From the NCBI GenBank assembly GCA_026988015.1, contig JALSMA010000091.1, positions 1-64,000 of the forward strand: a stretch of DNA of 64,000 nt, in the 5' to 3' direction. A model generated the notes under the pieces. The model saw nothing but the letters and a program-made list of their open reading frames with translations, ran no database searches and was not told the origin of the DNA. Positions 621-51,511 of this stretch are shown here, piece after piece (positions within the stretch are counted from its first letter, which is position 1; each line of letters starts with the position of its first letter). The stretch is from Desulfobulbaceae bacterium. GTDB lineage: Bacteria > Desulfobacterota > Desulfobulbia > Desulfobulbales > Desulfocapsaceae. Made by a program: the position numbers and the translations under genes.

Positions 621-842
621 ATGGGAAACCCACGCGATTTCATCGGGGTGCTGGCCGGATTATCTTTTTCATTTGGTGTTCTGCCGGTGATGGCTGCATC
701 GGAAGTTCCAATCTTTGAGGGCAGTGGAAGTGAAGAAATCCTGTTCCAGGATATTGCCTCTGTCTATTCCGCCTCCAAGTACGAACAAAAGGTCACAGAG
801 GCCCTGTTTTTGATCCTTTTACGAGCTTACGAGTTGTAGCTT
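621..842 (+). pseudogene. TonB-dependent receptor, 5' stub
   Basis: The product is 72 aa: a signal-peptide-like N-terminus (hydrophobic run to VMAA around residue 26) followed by a segment ending SVYSASKYEQKVTEA. That resembles the start of the plug domain of TonB-dependent outer-membrane receptors, where the next residues normally are a P-S-S-I/V-type strand and then a conserved ADEI-like motif. Here the reading frame degrades (LFLILLRAYEL) and stops at TAG, and no plug or barrel follows. The next gene is convergent and ends at 849. It is best read as a truncated remnant after deletion. A genuine short secreted peptide is possible but less likely. Confidence 0.6.
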
Positions 843-44580: not shown

Positions 44581-46362
44581 TTATCCTCCACAGGTGATCC
44601 TGATTGTTTCTGCCTTCTCGCTGATCCCTTTTTTCAAAACTTCATGGTTGTAGGCAGCGATCACATCGCGGCGTTTCAGCATTCCCACCACCCATTTGTT
44701 CTCAAGATCTTCAACCACAGGGATCTCTTCAATCCCTTTTACATCAAAGAGCTGCATGGCAGTGTACAGCGAATCGTCAGGCGTCAGCATGATTACATCC
44801 CGGGAACAGATGCCACCCACCAGGTAGCAGACCCGTTCTTCTTCCGCCCGGTGCAGAATGTTTTTTACGTCCTGCATGGAAATAATACCGGTCATTCTGC
44901 CTGAATCGTCAACCACAGGAAAGTAAAAACTGTCTTTTGCCATTCTGAATATTTCAAGAAGGTGATTGATGTTTGCCCGTTCCGAAATGAAATCGACATC
45001 TTCAGTTATGGCTTTACCCACCCGGATGGACTTCATTATTGCCGCTTCTCGTCCTTCGTGAATATCAATACCTTCCCTAGTGAAATCAACGGTGTCAATG
45101 GAATCATGATTGAATTTTTTGGCAACCATAACCCCGATGATAGAGGTGAGCATGATGGGAATAATAATAAGGTAATTCCCGGTCATCTCAAAGAGAAGGA
45201 AGATAGCAGTCATGGGTGCATGGGTTGATGCGGCAAGAAATGCTCCGATACCAACAGTTGCGTATGCACCCGGATCTGCGGTGAATGATGGGAAAACCAG
45301 ATTGGCAACATGGCCAAAACAACCGCCGATCATGGCCCCGATAAACAATGCTGGAGCAAAAACACCACCAGCCCCTCCAGAGCCCAGGGTAATGGCAGTT
45401 GCGATGATTTTTAGAAAAATGAGGACAAAGAGAATGGAGATGGCGCCATCACCATTCAGCACAGTTTCGATAAATCCATATCCATCACCCATGACTTGCG
45501 GGTAAGCTATGGCAATGCAGCCTATGAGAAAGGCACCGGTAATGGGTTTCAGTTGCGGGTGGATCGGTAATGTTTCGTATTTGTCACGAACCCAGTAAAA
45601 AACACGGATATGAAATACTGCAATCAGCCCGATTATGAGTGCCATGAGACTGTAAAGCGGGATCTCAACAAAGGGGTTGATCATAAAATAATCGGGAATG
45701 GGGAAGGCCGGGTTTTCACCGTAATAGGCGCGGGTGACAACGGTGGAGATCGCAGACGCGATAACCAGTGCTGCAAAGGATGATATTTCGAAGGTTCCGA
45801 GAAGGACTATTTCCGAGGCAAAGAAGATACCGGCAATGGGGGCATTGAACATTCCTGCAATACCGCCTGCAGCCCCTGCTGCAATATAGACTTTCATCCT
45901 GCTGCCGGAAACCCTGAAGAACTGGCCCACTTGGGATCCTGCTGCACCGCCAATGGCGGCAATGGGGCCTTCAACTCCAGCAGAATTTCCTGTACCGATG
46001 GTGAGTGCAGTGGTGATGATTTTAAGGGCAATGGTTCTTGCCTTAATGTAGCCGCCTTCTAAGTTTACCTTGCGTAGAAATTTCGTAAAGCCGTAACCGT
46101 TAACCTCTCCGGGAAAGAGCAGTGACAACGGGATGAGAAGAATCATGCCGCTGATTGGGATGAGAGGCAGCAGCAACAGATTCCAGCCGCCCTGTTCAAT
46201 GCCCAGCAGTCCTTTTCCGCCTTCCAGGAAAATGGTGTCGACCCAGTGTACAACGGTGCGAAAAATAATATTGCACACACCTGCCAGAAGGCCAATGACA
46301 GTGGCAATAATCATCATGCCGGTGTTTTCTCCTGGCATGAATTTGCGGAGGTGAATTTTCAT
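44581..46362 (-). CDS. ClC-family chloride channel/antiporter with CBS pair
   Basis: 593 aa. The membrane domain (residues ~15-430) has the selectivity motifs GTGNSAGVEGP (gating Glu131 kept) and GSGGAGGVFAPALFIGAM. Two cytosolic CBS domains fill ~445-585 (VDFISERANINHLLEIF; MLTPDDSLYTAMQLF), likely nucleotide-sensing. The channel-type GxGxP motif is replaced by GTGNS, so exact ion behaviour is unclear. It overlaps the dGTPase stop by 4 nt (ATGA). Confidence 0.9.
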   Translation of the reverse strand: MKIHLRKFMPGENTGMMIIATVIGLLAGVCNIIFRTVVHWVDTIFLEGGKGLLGIEQGGWNLLLLPLIPISGMILLIPLSLLFPGEVNGYGFTKFLRKVNLEGGYIKARTIALKIITTALTIGTGNSAGVEGPIAAIGGAAGSQVGQFFRVSGSRMKVYIAAGAAGGIAGMFNAPIAGIFFASEIVLLGTFEISSFAALVIASAISTVVTRAYYGENPAFPIPDYFMINPFVEIPLYSLMALIIGLIAVFHIRVFYWVRDKYETLPIHPQLKPITGAFLIGCIAIAYPQVMGDGYGFIETVLNGDGAISILFVLIFLKIIATAITLGSGGAGGVFAPALFIGAMIGGCFGHVANLVFPSFTADPGAYATVGIGAFLAASTHAPMTAIFLLFEMTGNYLIIIPIMLTSIIGVMVAKKFNHDSIDTVDFTREGIDIHEGREAAIMKSIRVGKAITEDVDFISERANINHLLEIFRMAKDSFYFPVVDDSGRMTGIISMQDVKNILHRAEEERVCYLVGGICSRDVIMLTPDDSLYTAMQLFDVKGIEEIPVVEDLENKWVVGMLKRRDVIAAYNHEVLKKGISEKAETIRITCGG

Positions 46363-47543
46363 TGTTTTTCTGGTACCTTACAGCCGACACTTGCAGCCTG
46401 TTTAAGAAAGAAATCATCCGTCATCCCGGCAATATAATCGCATACCATTGCCGCAGGGGCATGTGAGGCAAGATAGCTTGCATCCATGTCTGTCATCAGG
46501 TCGACAGGCTTTGTTGCTTCTCCTTTTACCAGCAGTGAGAGATAGTGCTCAAAAAGGGTCTCGTAACAGTTCCTGACAAGGGGAAGATTGCTTTTTGTTT
46601 TGGGGTGGAGATAGATGTTTTTGTAATTAAAGGTCTTTAACTCCTGAAGGTGGTCTGCCACTTTCGATGAAAAGCCAATGTGGCCTGTTCCTTCGGTACT
46701 GTTTTGTGGAATGTAACTGTTACTGATAAGGTCAGTGACCAGGGTGTAAACAATTTCTCCATTGGTGCTGCCAAGCTGTGACCTGCATGTTACGGGAATA
46801 TCGTCACGTTTTATGAGGGAAAGTAAAATGGCATCCTCAATGTCTCTCCCAATGTAAGCGACAGTGTCAGCCATGCGGACGACACAGCCTTCGAGGGTCA
46901 TGGGAGCAAGTTTGTATTCGGGGTTCTGTTTTTTCTTTTCCAGTTCAGCATCAAACCCATTGAAATCCCTGGCAGGGCAGGGGACTATTTGGTTTGCATG
47001 GATTTCCCCGTCGTGACAGAGGATACCATCCAGGGTCTGCAATGATAAATTCCAGCCACGTCCCTTCCGTTCAAGGTGGTCAAGAAAGCGTACGGACTGA
47101 ATATTGTGCTGAAAAGGAGGCAGGCCGTGCCTTACACAGAGGTCTGCCAGAAAACTTTCTCCGTCATGGCCAAATGGCGCATGGCCGATATCATGGCCAA
47201 GTGCAATGGCTTCAATGAGATCTTCGTTAAGTCCTAGAAAACGTCCTACTGTACGGGCAATTCTCGATACCAATTGTACATGAAGTACTCGGTGGGTGAT
47301 ATGGTCGTTTGAAACCAGGCAAAACACCTGGGTCTTGTCAATATATCTGGTGTAGGCCCGGGAATGTATGATTCGGTCTGCGTCAAGACTGAAGGCCTGG
47401 CGATATCCTATGCGAGACTCTACTTTTCGGCGTAAGACGTCTGTTGAACGAGTTGCAGCCCAGGATAGTCGTGTATCCTCAAGCCTGTTGAGGGTGTCGA
47501 GGGTCGGGAGAAGGCTGTTGTGTGCTGGAGCTGCCTGCGTCAT
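46359..47543 (-). CDS. dgt: Deoxyguanosine triphosphate triphosphohydrolase-like protein
   Basis: 394-aa HD-domain dNTPase. The metal site is formed by the HRVLHVQ region and GHDIGHAPFGHDGE (His117, Asp118). SRAYTRYIDKTQVF near residue 61 is the N-terminal family signature (R-x-x-x-K-T-Q-V). It hydrolyses dNTPs to nucleosides and triphosphate. Length fits the short dGTPase-like subgroup (about 400 aa) rather than E. coli Dgt (505 aa). Coupled to the ClC gene downstream. Confidence 0.88.
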   Translation of the reverse strand: MTQAAPAHNSLLPTLDTLNRLEDTRLSWAATRSTDVLRRKVESRIGYRQAFSLDADRIIHSRAYTRYIDKTQVFCLVSNDHITHRVLHVQLVSRIARTVGRFLGLNEDLIEAIALGHDIGHAPFGHDGESFLADLCVRHGLPPFQHNIQSVRFLDHLERKGRGWNLSLQTLDGILCHDGEIHANQIVPCPARDFNGFDAELEKKKQNPEYKLAPMTLEGCVVRMADTVAYIGRDIEDAILLSLIKRDDIPVTCRSQLGSTNGEIVYTLVTDLISNSYIPQNSTEGTGHIGFSSKVADHLQELKTFNYKNIYLHPKTKSNLPLVRNCYETLFEHYLSLLVKGEATKPVDLMTDMDASYLASHAPAAMVCDYIAGMTDDFFLKQAASVGCKVPEKQ

Positions 47544-47610: not shown

Positions 47611-47820
47611 TCTTTTGAAGATCCATCAAATAGTGGTGGACAGAAAAAACCTTTCTGTCAGCTTAGTAAAGACCAAAGGGAGATACTATACCAGACTGAA
47701 TAGAAAAAGCACGTTTTGCTCTCGGGTACCTGCTAAAAATGGTTTTTTTCCCTTGAGAGTGTGGTAGAATCCTGCCAGTTGTTTTTTTATTGATGAAGAA
47801 CTTAACCAGAGAGATCTGCA

Positions 47821-48039
47821 GTGAAGATATCCATAGAATATTGTACAAAATGAAATTATAAACCCCGTGCTTCCAGTCTGGAAGAGGAGCTTAAAAAAGA
47901 ATTTGATGCTGAAGTTGAACTCATAGCATCTGCTGGTGGTGTATATGAGGTTGTGGTCGATGGAAAAAATATCTTTTCCAAGAAGTCCATTGGTCGTTTC
48001 CCTGAAGATGGTGAGATTGTAACACGTATTCGGGGATGA
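47821..48039 (+). CDS. SelW-like selenoprotein (Rdx family), UGA = Sec
   Basis: A 72-aa product if TGA at 47,851-47,853 is read as selenocysteine (residue 11). The N-terminus is VKISIEYCTKU followed by NYKPRASSLEEELKK, exactly the CxxU redox motif and next helix of SelW/SelT/SelH-type thioredoxin-like proteins. The rest (AEVELIASAGGVYEVVVDG, IFSKKSIGRFPEDGEIV) matches the Rdx family through to TGA at 48,037. A GTG start with AGAGAG upstream is the only good start. Read conventionally the gene would be missed. A SECIS-like hairpin follows the UGA. It acts as a small cytosolic thiol/selenol redox protein. Its stop is 6 bp from that of the convergent DtxR gene. Confidence 0.93.
47870..47884 (+). 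promoter_or_regulatory. Bacterial SECIS-like hairpin
   Basis: CTTCCA and TGGAAG form a perfect 6-bp stem with apical loop GTC. The loop starts 22 nt after the in-frame UGA, inside the coding region. Bacterial SECIS elements sit at about this distance and carry a G/GU-containing apical loop bound by SelB. Confidence 0.7.
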
Positions 48040-48045
48040 GAGGTG

Positions 48046-48567
48046 CTACGGCTCGTCTGATTGCTCTTTAGTGCCCTGGGTATTACAGGAAGAGATACAC
48101 TCGCTGCAGTTGTTTCGCGGCTTGCCGTGTTTGTAGTAATCGGCAAATCCTTGGAGTAGATCGCCCCCTCCCCGGGGACATGCTTGCAGAAAGTCAATGA
48201 AGGATATCATCCTGGCGATAATTTCCGGCGGTGCTGCATGTTCTACCCTGCAGGCACTTTCCTCTGCTGTTTTAGTGTCAATTGCCAGGACTTCAATAAA
48301 AAATCGTTTTAGGGCGTCATGGCGAAAGATCACATCTTCTGCTGTTTGTCTGCCAAGTTGTGTCAGAGTGATTGGTTCGTAAGGGGCGTAGTGGATCAGT
48401 TCCTTTTTGGATAAGGCACGCAGGGCCTCGGTTACAGATGCTCTGCTTACACTGAGACGGGTTGCAATATCTTTACTTCTCGCCACCTGATTTATAGAAA
48501 TAATGTGGTAGATAGCTTCGATGTAGTCTTCCAAGCTTGCTGTGAGGGGAACCGTTTGAGTGGGCAT
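48046..48567 (-). CDS. DtxR/MntR-family metal-dependent repressor
   Basis: 173 aa. N-terminal winged HTH (SLEDYIEAIYHIISINQVARSKDIATRL, SRASVTEALRALSKKELI) is followed by the DtxR dimerisation/metal-binding domain (FRHDALKRFFIEVL, ACRVEHAAPPEII, with the Cys-x-x-Glu-His metal ligands). There is no SH3 (FeoA) domain. A Cys-containing tail (NNCSECISSC) is an addition that could sense redox or bind metal. Metal (Fe or Mn) not predictable. No transporter is adjacent. Confidence 0.88.
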   Translation of the reverse strand: MPTQTVPLTASLEDYIEAIYHIISINQVARSKDIATRLSVSRASVTEALRALSKKELIHYAPYEPITLTQLGRQTAEDVIFRHDALKRFFIEVLAIDTKTAEESACRVEHAAPPEIIARMISFIDFLQACPRGGGDLLQGFADYYKHGKPRNNCSECISSCNTQGTKEQSDEP

Positions 48568-48730: not shown

Positions 48731-48773
48731 TAAGGTGTGATAGCTGGTGAAACAACAACGGGTGACTGTAGTT

Positions 48774-50465
48774 ATGCTCTGTGAATTAAAAATAGATAAT
48801 CTGGCACTGATAGAGAGCCTGCATCTTGATCTCTGTGAAAACGGGGCCAGCGGACTGGTGGTGATGACTGGTGAAACTGGTGCTGGAAAATCCATCATGC
48901 TCAGGGCGATTCATCTCCTTACAGGTGGGCGTGCCTCAACCGATTGGATTCGCAGCGGTGCTGACCAGTGTACGGTTGAGGCCCTGTTTGAGGTTTCGTT
49001 AGAGAATAGACAATTGCAGGAGCTATTTCAGAAACAGGGATTGGATGTGGACGAAACCCTCGTTATGAAACGGGTCGTGACTGGTAAGGGCAGAAGTCGT
49101 ATGTACATTAACGGCTCTCCTGCCACGGCAAAGATGGCCTCAGAACTTGCCGTCAATCTTCTCAATGTTGCCAGTCAACATGATCATCAGCAGTTATTGC
49201 AGCCCTGGTTTCATCTGGATTTTCTTGATACCATGGGGGAAACTTGGTCCGACAGAAAACGTTTTGACCAGCTTTTTGTTGCGTGGCAGGAAAAAAAAGA
49301 AATTCTTGATGCCCTCCAGAAACAAGAGCAGGAAAAGGAACAACGTAGAGATTTCCTGAAGTATCAGGTGCAGGAGATCCACGATCTTGAACCGGTTCCT
49401 GGGGAAGATGAAGCACTTGTTGAAGAGAAAAAGCGCCTCAAAAGTGCAGAGGCGCTCATTAAAATCAGCCGTAAATCCCACAAACTCATGGAATACTCTC
49501 TGCTTGATGGTCTGATCCAGATTCGCATGGATATGAATCAGGCTGCTGAAATGGACAGCAATGCTGAAGAACTTGCAGCTGAACTTTCGGAATTCAGTTA
49601 CCTGGCAGAAGATTTGGTGGTGAAGCTTCGTGGATACCGGGACACCTTGAACAACGATCCCCATCGCCTTGACGTGGTCAGTGAGCGTTTAAATGAATTG
49701 CAGGGGTTGAAAAGAAAATATGGGAACAGTCTTGGGGCTGTACTTGAATTTGCAGCTGAGGCAGAAAATGAACTGCAGCAGATAGAAAATCTTGACAAGG
49801 CAGTTGTTGAGTGTGAAGAAGATGTCGCAAATCTTGAGAAGGAACTTTGCGGGATGGCGGCTGAGCTGAGTAAGAAGAGAAAAAATACTGCTGCGACCCT
49901 TGAAAAAGCAATGGCGGGGGAACTCGCGTCTCTGGCTTTTAATCAATCCGGTCTTGAAGTGCATTTTCAGGAACATGACGCCACTGCGACTGAGCTGCGA
50001 CAGGGAGGCTGGGACAGGGTGGAATTCTTTTTTTCTGCCAATCCGGGTGAGCCACCGCGTCCTCTAGTGAAGGTGGCATCAGGGGGTGAGTTATCCCGTC
50101 TTATGCTTGCCTTTAAATGTCTGCTTGCCAGGAAAGATATGGTTGAGACCGTGATCTTTGATGAAGTTGATGCAGGGATTGGTGGTGAGGCGGCAGAGGC
50201 TGTGGCCAGGAAAATCCAGGAACTCTCTGGCCATCATCAGGTGTTTTGTATAACCCATCTGCCCCAGATTGCCGCCCGTGGCAACAGTCATTTCCTGGTT
50301 GAAAAAGGAGTTGCAGATGGAAGGACTCAGTCCGGAATTCATCTGCTTGCTGAAGACGATCAGCGCGTGTCGGAAATCAGCAGGATGCTGGCGGGTGAAT
50401 CTGTTACGGATCAAACCAGGGCGTGGGCTGAGAAACTTTTGGAAAATGGTAGGAAAGCAGCATGA
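48774..50465 (+). CDS. recN: DNA repair ATPase RecN
   Basis: 563-aa SMC-like double-strand-break repair protein. It begins LCELKIDNLALIESL with Walker A GETGAGKS. Long coiled-coil arms (residues ~150-420, Glu/Lys-rich) surround the hinge. The C-terminal head has VASGGELSRLMLA (signature) and VIFDEVDAGIGG (Walker B). The ATG at 48,774 is preferred over an upstream GTG on homology. No LexA box was recognised. The stop overlaps the next gene by 4 nt (ATGA). Confidence 0.93.
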   Translation: MLCELKIDNLALIESLHLDLCENGASGLVVMTGETGAGKSIMLRAIHLLTGGRASTDWIRSGADQCTVEALFEVSLENRQLQELFQKQGLDVDETLVMKRVVTGKGRSRMYINGSPATAKMASELAVNLLNVASQHDHQQLLQPWFHLDFLDTMGETWSDRKRFDQLFVAWQEKKEILDALQKQEQEKEQRRDFLKYQVQEIHDLEPVPGEDEALVEEKKRLKSAEALIKISRKSHKLMEYSLLDGLIQIRMDMNQAAEMDSNAEELAAELSEFSYLAEDLVVKLRGYRDTLNNDPHRLDVVSERLNELQGLKRKYGNSLGAVLEFAAEAENELQQIENLDKAVVECEEDVANLEKELCGMAAELSKKRKNTAATLEKAMAGELASLAFNQSGLEVHFQEHDATATELRQGGWDRVEFFFSANPGEPPRPLVKVASGGELSRLMLAFKCLLARKDMVETVIFDEVDAGIGGEAAEAVARKIQELSGHHQVFCITHLPQIAARGNSHFLVEKGVADGRTQSGIHLLAEDDQRVSEISRMLAGESVTDQTRAWAEKLLENGRKAA

Positions 50466-51511
50466 AGAAGATAACAGCACTTGCCCTCTATTCGGGTGGA
50501 TTGGATTCCATGCTTGCCGCCAAATTGGTCGCATCCCTGGGTGTTCGTGTTCTGGCAGTCAAATTTGTGACCCCCTTTTTTGATTATGGATTGCTTGAAG
50601 ATCCTGAGAAGTACAAACAGGATGTGAAAGAGAAGTATGGTATTGAGGTTCTTGTTGAAGATCTCAGTAATAACTATCTGGACCTTCTTCATCATCCATC
50701 CCACGGTTTTGGTAAGAATTTTAATCCCTGCATTGACTGTAAGATCCTGATGTTCAGTCGGGCCAAGGCGATGCTGGCAGAGTACGACGCCTCTTTTCTG
50801 GTCACTGGTGAGGTGATCGGGCAGCGCCCCATGTCACAACGTCGAGATACCCTGCGGGTTATTGAACGCGATTCTGACAATGATGGCCTGTTGCTGCGCC
50901 CTCTTTCCGCAAAATTGATGAACCCCACCAAGGCAGAAATTGAGGGGTGGGTTGACAGGGATAAACTTCTTGATTTCAGTGGGCGCGGGAGATCCAGACA
51001 GATAAAGATGGCCCATGAATATGGTATCACAGACTTTCCCACACCAGCTGGGGGGTGCACTCTGGCAGATCCCATTTTAAGTACCAGGATAGCAAAAATA
51101 TACGCCGATGACTTTGTGATTAAGGCCGATGAAATAACCGTCACCGATATTCGCTTTCTGCTGGTAGGCCGGCAGTTTCTTCTTCCTGGCGGTTACTGGG
51201 TTATCCTGGGACGTAACGAGAAGGAAAATATGAAAATTGAAGAGTTGGCAGAGGAAAACGATATTCTCTTTCATATGCCTGACAGGCCGGGACCCACTGC
51301 CCTGTTACGTAACGCGAAGTCGATGTTGGCTTCCGGAGACAAAACGGATGCAATTTTACAAGGGACTGCCGATCTCGTGGTTCGCTATGGGAAAAAAGTA
51401 AAGGATGATTCCGGTGAAGGGGTAAATATCACTGAAATGGACGGTGAGCATACAGTGCTGGGGAAGAGACTGTCGGAACAACTCTGCCAGGAGTGGATGA
51501 TAAAGTCTTAA
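50462..51511 (+). CDS. PP-loop ATPase, ThiI/MnmA-like RNA thiolation-type
   Basis: 349 aa. N-terminal PP-loop ATP pyrophosphatase domain with SGGLDS (residues 11-16), a Cys pair in NPCIDCKI and a third conserved Cys in PAGGCTLADP, which together resemble the Fe-S/thiolation sites of tRNA 2- or 4-thiouridylases. The C-terminal ~110 residues (MPDRPGPTALLRN, VVRYGKKVKDD) resemble an NFACT-R-like module. The family is usually annotated as a tRNA-modifying enzyme, but the exact substrate is unproven. It is translationally coupled to recN. Confidence 0.75.
   Translation: MKKITALALYSGGLDSMLAAKLVASLGVRVLAVKFVTPFFDYGLLEDPEKYKQDVKEKYGIEVLVEDLSNNYLDLLHHPSHGFGKNFNPCIDCKILMFSRAKAMLAEYDASFLVTGEVIGQRPMSQRRDTLRVIERDSDNDGLLLRPLSAKLMNPTKAEIEGWVDRDKLLDFSGRGRSRQIKMAHEYGITDFPTPAGGCTLADPILSTRIAKIYADDFVIKADEITVTDIRFLLVGRQFLLPGGYWVILGRNEKENMKIEELAEENDILFHMPDRPGPTALLRNAKSMLASGDKTDAILQGTADLVVRYGKKVKDDSGEGVNITEMDGEHTVLGKRLSEQLCQEWMIKS

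Follow-up and report, generated by a model that had tools for sequence, protein, structure and literature searches.

Positions 47821-48039 of the window, by which we mean the whole 64,000-nucleotide stretch of Desulfobulbaceae bacterium DNA analysed here (contig JALSMA010000091.1), hold what we consider, with a probability of about 97%, to be a functional gene for a SelW-like (Rdx) selenoprotein, its UGA read as selenocysteine (Sec) by way of SelB and a SECIS element. A selenoprotein at this place had been proposed in an earlier sequence-only reading, and the proposal is supported by Sec machinery in the same genome, by a TGA in 117 of 117 distinct copies of the gene, by purifying selection and by covariation in the SECIS. 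Translation would start at the GTG at 47821; SelB, bound to the SECIS hairpin and carrying Sec-tRNA-Sec(UCA), would insert Sec at the in-frame UGA, and the ribosome would continue as far as the stop codon TGA at 48037. The 72-residue product would have a thioredoxin-like fold, with the Cys8-x-x-Sec11 motif where its first strand ends. It is most likely a thiol/selenol redox protein, in whose cycle Sec and Cys would form a selenenylsulfide. We infer the Sec insertion, the redox activity, the partner (glutathione or thioredoxin) and the cellular role.

Reading frame of selW and its visibility to ORF listing

Direct reading of the plus strand confirmed the 72-codon GTG frame with a single internal TGA that had been described: ten codons from the GTG, the TGA, 61 codons, and a TGA stop at 48037-48039 (Table 1). 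The internal TGA stands at the second redox position of a CxxU motif, as claimed, and apart from it the frame contains no further stop. With this TGA translated as Sec, the product reads VKISIEYCTKUNYKPRASSLEEELKKEFDAEVELIASAGGVYEVVVDGKNIFSKKSIGRFPEDGEIVTRIRG. The GTG is the sole ATG, GTG or TTG in the stretch that runs from the in-frame stop ahead of it to the Sec TGA, and the next possible start past the Sec TGA, again a GTG, lies at codon 45; a table-11 ORF list (at least 40 aa) therefore omits selW. As the sequence-only reading had anticipated, the list reports an antisense ORF in its place, which gave zero Pfam matches at E≤0.1. The gene had also been called hidden, and a simple ORF listing does miss it, but the SelW family itself is well known.

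A weak Shine-Dalgarno-like sequence precedes the GTG, and at roughly that position GGAG or AGGAG stands upstream of the gene in several relatives. A promoter scan of the plus strand ahead of selW gave no candidate. Terminator-like sites numbered three, where shuffles gave 1.1 (sd 1.0), and the selW stop was not among them. A coding-motif pattern for the Sec site, built on the SelW family after that site had been seen, had a single match in the window and none in 100 shuffles. The search for other TGA-interrupted frames in the window, mostly outside ORFs of at least 130 aa, returned 9 candidates, one of which was selW; seven of the remaining eight matched no Pfam family at E≤0.1, and the eighth had a chance-level match at 0.099.

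Table 1. Features of the selW locus, in window coordinates
Feature	Position	Strand	Basis or remark
dGTP triphosphohydrolase-like HD protein, divergent from selW	46359..47543	-	homologue in 54/100 relative loci
Shine-Dalgarno-like AGAGAGA, weak	47808..47814	+	direct read
selW-like CDS, 72 residues counting Sec11	47821-48039	+	GTG start, TGA stop
Cys8 codon TGT, first position of CxxU	47842..47844	+	direct read
Sec11 codon, in-frame TGA, giving C-T-K-U (predicted)	47851..47853	+	conservation and machinery in own genome
Antisense ORF listed in place of selW	47856..48197	-	table-11 ORF listing, at least 40 aa
Putative bacterial SECIS hairpin, 6-bp stem CTTCCA/TGGAAG, loop GTC	47870..47884	+	comparative evidence
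DtxR/MntR-type metal-dependent regulator, tail-to-tail with selW	48046..48567	-	homologue in 55/100 relative loci
recN	48747..50465	+	TIGR00634, 521.7 bits; homologue in 64/100 relative loci
ThiI-like domain joined to NFACT-R_2 RNA-binding domain, directly after recN	50462-51511	+	homologue in 35/100 relatives' selW loci

Family assignment and predicted fold

The read-through protein matched the Pfam Rdx family (PF10262) with 78.1 bits (cut-off 22.6, E=6.1e-22), the domain spanning residues 2-71 and profile positions 1-73 of 74. This full-length match bears out the claim of Rdx-family sequence on both flanks of the TGA. TIGR02174 was matched with 68.2 bits (cut-off 34.2) and NCBIfam NF041051 with 104.8 bits (cut-off 88). 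The latter model, SelTWH_Campy (SelT/SelW/SelH family (seleno)protein), whose name we read as pointing to Campylobacterota, was also matched by 40 of the 40 members of our alignment A2 (E≤0.001).

By sequence, the best solved relative was 2fa8 (E=8.1e-12), ahead of other SelW-type proteins. An AlphaFold2 model built from 40 sequences, with Cys for Sec, reached a pLDDT of 94.5 and a pTM of 0.80 and superseded a poor model from the single sequence (pLDDT 48.7). In the model a strand (E2-8) is followed by a helix (14-28), with the Cys8/Sec11 motif after the first strand. The top PDB matches were 21 bacterial SelW-type chains (TM 0.82-0.92); human MIEN1 gave a TM of 0.76 and mouse SelW (2npb) 0.71. 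From this model we confidently predict that the window protein has the SelW-type thioredoxin-like fold, shared with mouse SelW and with the solved Rdx proteins 2fa8 (Atu0228), 2obk, 2oka, 2ojl, 2p0g and 3dex. These differ from the window protein in sequence (32-44% identity in structural alignments), and 2fa8 and 2p0g, the two alignments that were inspected, carry Cys at the site of Sec11.

Conservation of the TGA codon and selection downstream of it

A selW match was found in 119 of 144 genomes, our own included. The other 25 had none, and selW is therefore dispensable. Loci were taken from 117 of the 119 positive genomes (G067 and G109 were left out); from the resulting 130 loci we removed L150 of G033, in which no Sec column could be aligned, and 12 repeats, leaving 117 distinct copies that include our own and one second copy (G044). 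The Sec codon was TGA in all 117, our own included, and never TAA or TAG. Three residues ahead of it stood Cys in 116 copies and TGA in one. One of the 117, L041, gave no full CDS and was excluded from later counts (n=116). SelW in this order looks obligately Sec-containing, to judge from the 117 distinct copies, among which no Cys form occurred. Downstream of the Sec TGA, dN/dS against our own copy was 0.061-0.196 in 10 of 13 comparisons, the ten in which dS could be computed. The sequence after the TGA is under purifying selection.

These values bear on the reading in which the UGA is mainly a selenium-dependent switch, the regulated stop after ten residues being its point. Without selenium, a stop after 10 residues would follow from any Sec codon that near the start; however, nothing points to a role for a 10-residue peptide, and the 61 downstream codons are under purifying selection, so that we consider such a switch very improbable. 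Even less can be said for a decayed Rdx gene with a nonsense TGA: interrupted frames most often come from a premature stop, and the relative G033 has a broken copy, but the TGA stands at the same codon in every distinct copy, dN/dS downstream is 0.06-0.20, and the frame in the window is without another stop, which together leave decay hardly any probability. The sequence-only reading had asked whether homologues were decayed with further stops, and the same TGA count and dN/dS values show that they are not. A chance frame or pseudogene was likewise rejected, on the open frame, the conserved TGA and the purifying selection.

Individual copies had features of their own. The selW of G033 (L150), a one-contig genome, is split into two frames by an apparent frameshift. 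The SelW of G143 (L116:2492-2710) has UxxU in place of CxxU, with TGA at both motif positions; in this single genome a sequencing error is possible. Excerpts of PMC9312934 and PMC2398784 report UxxU for Prx-like families. G044 carries, beside a close copy, a second SelW paralogue (L173) with 35% identity and its own TGA and hairpin.

A putative SECIS hairpin downstream of the UGA

A bacterial SECIS is a stem-loop soon after the UGA with a G within the first two loop positions. The 6-bp stem and GTC loop noted earlier are present after the selW UGA, but the distance of 22 nt given for the hairpin is that from the UGA to the loop, and the stem begins 16 nt past the UGA. Folded alone, the hairpin of the window did not exceed dinucleotide shuffles in stability (z -0.37; of 200 shuffles, 67 folded equally well or better). 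Across relatives, the 14 codons from the UGA exceeded own-codon synonymous shuffles in stability, with a mean z of -0.78 (sem 0.08, n=116 CDS), and the overlapping segment 3 codons on gave -0.59, with +0.26, -0.02, -0.09 and -0.42 in later segments; pooled-codon shuffles gave -0.60, -0.46, +0.27, -0.01, -0.14 and -0.54 for the same segments. Because the segment 36 codons past the UGA also shows a negative z (own codons -0.42, pooled codons -0.54; the segment at the UGA has -0.78 and -0.60, respectively), stability by itself fails to single out the UGA region.

We then consider covariation, counting the T of the UGA as column 0. Columns 20 and 32, the wobble positions of codons 17 and 21, had the highest corrected mutual information among 404 column pairs, with T-A in 76 and C-G in 24 of 114 distinct 51-mers. 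The set was enlarged to 184 distinct sequences, 113 near and 71 far, L192 being dropped for masked bases; the pattern used to fetch the far set fixes the sequence only as far as column 19. Columns 20-32 paired in 171 of 184 sequences (116.1 expected under independence), columns 21-31 in 170 (97.9) and columns 22-30 in 178 (169.6), contrasts that are inflated by the pooling of the two groups; the permutations ignore relatedness. The excess at 20-32 and 21-31 holds within each group: 106 of 113 (86.6 expected) and 112 of 113 (105.2) in the near set, and 65 of 71 (43.3) and 58 of 71 (41.3) in the far set, in which 22-30 paired in 68 of 71 (61.7). Column pairs 19-33 and 23-29 showed scarcely any variation. 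All six stem pairs were formed in 142 of the 184 sequences, five in 37 and four in 5, and the first loop base was G in all 184. Judged from these alignments, the hairpin behaves like a bacterial SECIS: two to three of its stem pairs covary. A conserved apical G of the bacterial SECIS is mentioned in an excerpt of PMC1088965.

Sec machinery in the host genome

The genome of the organism (3.15 Mb in 91 contigs, 99.8% complete) was searched for the machinery that a selenoprotein implies. Matches were counted solely over the cut-off because weaker ones rang in 4-14 of the 14 control genomes (tRNA-Sec in 14, selA in 4, selB in 14, selD in 14); over the cut-off the controls numbered 5, 1, 2 and 2, respectively. 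In our genome tRNA-Sec scored 76.1 bits (cut-off 47), and ARAGORN reported a tRNA-SeC with anticodon tca; selA scored 597.3 bits (cut-off 267.9), selB 375 (242.25) and selD 374.1 (125). The SelA/B/C/D set that the sequence-only reading had implied is thus over the cut-off in every part, and the absence of all Sec machinery, which that reading had named as telling against it, was not what this genome gave. The selD gene (contig C17:37204-38145) has one in-frame TGA (...KASGUAAKLG...), and SelD is a predicted selenoprotein. The selA gene lies on contig C71 (L009, L073), and the gene after it looks by eye like a GGDEF/TPR protein.

That the UGA is read as another residue (Trp or Cys), or is generally reassigned in the organism, has almost no probability and is rejected for our own genome: any code that reads TGA would keep the frame open, and a TGA-selW occurs without detected Sec machinery in the relative G029, but selW itself ends in TGA, as do 54 of the 117 distinct copies, the genome has SelA, SelB, SelD and a tRNA-Sec with anticodon TCA, the SECIS hairpin covaries, and the UGA site aligns with a redox Cys position.

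Relatives with selW in which selA was not detected

Among the 119 selW-positive genomes, 19 show no selA. Four of these are closed (G009, G024, G031 and G061); they have a TGA-selW, a full selB and a tRNA-Sec above 70 bits, and selA was found in none of them by profile or by tblastn with our organism's own SelA. In G054 selA and a 16S rRNA gene are neighbours that point away from each other, both G054 and G033 have masked sequence near selA, and selA starts within 600 bases of the contig start in at least 25 full-length matches. It seems that selA adjoins an rRNA operon in these relatives; its position near contig starts fits, because an rRNA operon next door would cause such breaks. In G024, G031 and G061 the gene that normally follows selA is present and masked sequence on the side facing selA cuts into its start, and for this reason selA is most likely hidden by masking there, not lost. 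In G009 the gene that follows selA elsewhere gave weak matches only. We make no claim of a SelA-less Sec pathway in the relatives; masking beside the rRNA operon most likely explains three of the four closed genomes.

The other 15 are drafts, 11 of them below 90% complete. G029, G076, G080 and G109 are 93-99% complete, G109 being counted as lacking selA by inference, as the one unlisted genome. G076 and G080 have selB and tRNA-Sec. In G029 (94% complete) selA, selB, selD and tRNA-Sec were all below the cut-off; its TGA-selW (L035) and hairpin are intact, with dN/dS of 0.09-0.23 in four comparisons and no sign of decay. In the congeneric genomes G043, G053 and G060, selA and a TGA-selD are present but no selB exceeds the cut-off, with a C-terminal piece of selB in G043. 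G029 is a true exception to the pairing of selW with the machinery, in a relative rather than in our own genome; an incomplete draft and a recent loss are both possible explanations.

Neighbourhood of selW

The stops of selW and of the DtxR/MntR-type regulator are 6 nt apart. Neighbours were surveyed in 100 relative loci, over at most 2.5 kb per side and with many loci cut by contig ends; 30 of the 100 had none of the five neighbour genes sought. Order and strand were measured for the regulator only, with distances running to the tblastn match, not the stop. Its position was measured in 44 of the 55 loci that have it: it lay on the opposite strand in 44 of 44 and downstream in 43, the remaining one overlapping by 13 nt. 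The regulator in the window has a Cys-rich C-terminal tail (NNCSECISSC), and the copies of three relatives have a similar one. It is improbable, in our estimate, that selW belongs to a metal/redox-stress module that guards nucleotide pools and DNA, its convergent end letting the selW and regulator transcripts regulate each other.

Elsewhere in the window, a short frame at 621-839 (plus strand) has a signal peptide followed by EVPIFEGSGSEEILFQDIASVYSASKYEQKVTEA, which we take to resemble the start of an outer-membrane receptor, and is soon cut off. It had no Pfam match and is perhaps a gene remnant.

Distribution and relation to known SelW-like proteins

A DNA pattern of the TGA form occurred in at least 119 stretches of species genomes. 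Of 80 loci examined among the matches listed, 78 align to SelW with a score of at least 100; one of the other two stops early and one is masked. Titles among the matches listed name Desulfobulbaceae, Acidobacteria, Gemmatimonadetes, Planctomycetes, Verrucomicrobia, Poribacteria, SAR324 and Chloroflexi. The closest named loci among them were those of MED-G177 bacterium (70% over 66 residues), Ca. Desulfatifera (69%), Desulfocapsa (68%) and Desulfobulbaceae (67% and 66%). By themselves these identities would point to Desulfobulbales as the probable order of the window. The Cys form was sought with the pattern CNYxPRA[SA][SRG]L in 84,980 species genomes (8 pattern matches) and in viral contigs (130), and none was confirmed in either; these scans read Sec as Cys and are blind to Sec forms, and such exact peptide patterns miss the distant Cys homologues that exist.

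Published surveys describe the same family. An excerpt of PMC1794560 lists SelW-like proteins for Desulfotalea psychrophila, Geobacter sulfurreducens and others and finds Cys homologues very rare or absent in organisms that contain Sec, and a table row in PMC9312934 assigns the SelW-like family to pfam10262 with CxxU. With this prokaryotic family the window protein shares the Rdx domain, the CxxU motif and Sec at its second position; it differs in sequence only, and we saw no departure in anatomy. D. psychrophila, itself a sulfate-reducer from the former Deltaproteobacteria, carries the SelW-like family as the window does. In the part of PMC1088965 drawn on here, SelW-like is the most abundant selenoprotein family of the Sargasso Sea (48 genes), a bacterial SECIS is shown for one of these genes, and the CXXU motif is taken to suggest a redox role. 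In the GOS data, SelW-like proteins and SelD were the most widespread selenoproteins, with 427 SelW-like sequences and 56 Cys homologues (PMC2398784, in excerpt). The Sargasso and GOS proteins have CxxU and a bacterial SECIS with conserved apical G, as in the window; they are environmental sequences, whereas the selW described here comes with its host genome and Sec machinery.

Significance

The selW of the window is an ordinary member of a known and widespread family. That family has been known since about 2005 and is often missed in genome annotation; the family, its SECIS, the scarcity of its Cys forms and its escape from annotation are all already in print, and the find leaves knowledge of selenocysteine unchanged. 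It does illustrate that a reading of raw sequence can find a real recoded gene that a simple ORF listing loses. It adds, in Desulfobulbales, one well-supported SelW gene, complete with SECIS and machinery. Since the excerpted PMC1088965 describes what bacterial SelW does as unclear, a well-placed example has modest practical value.
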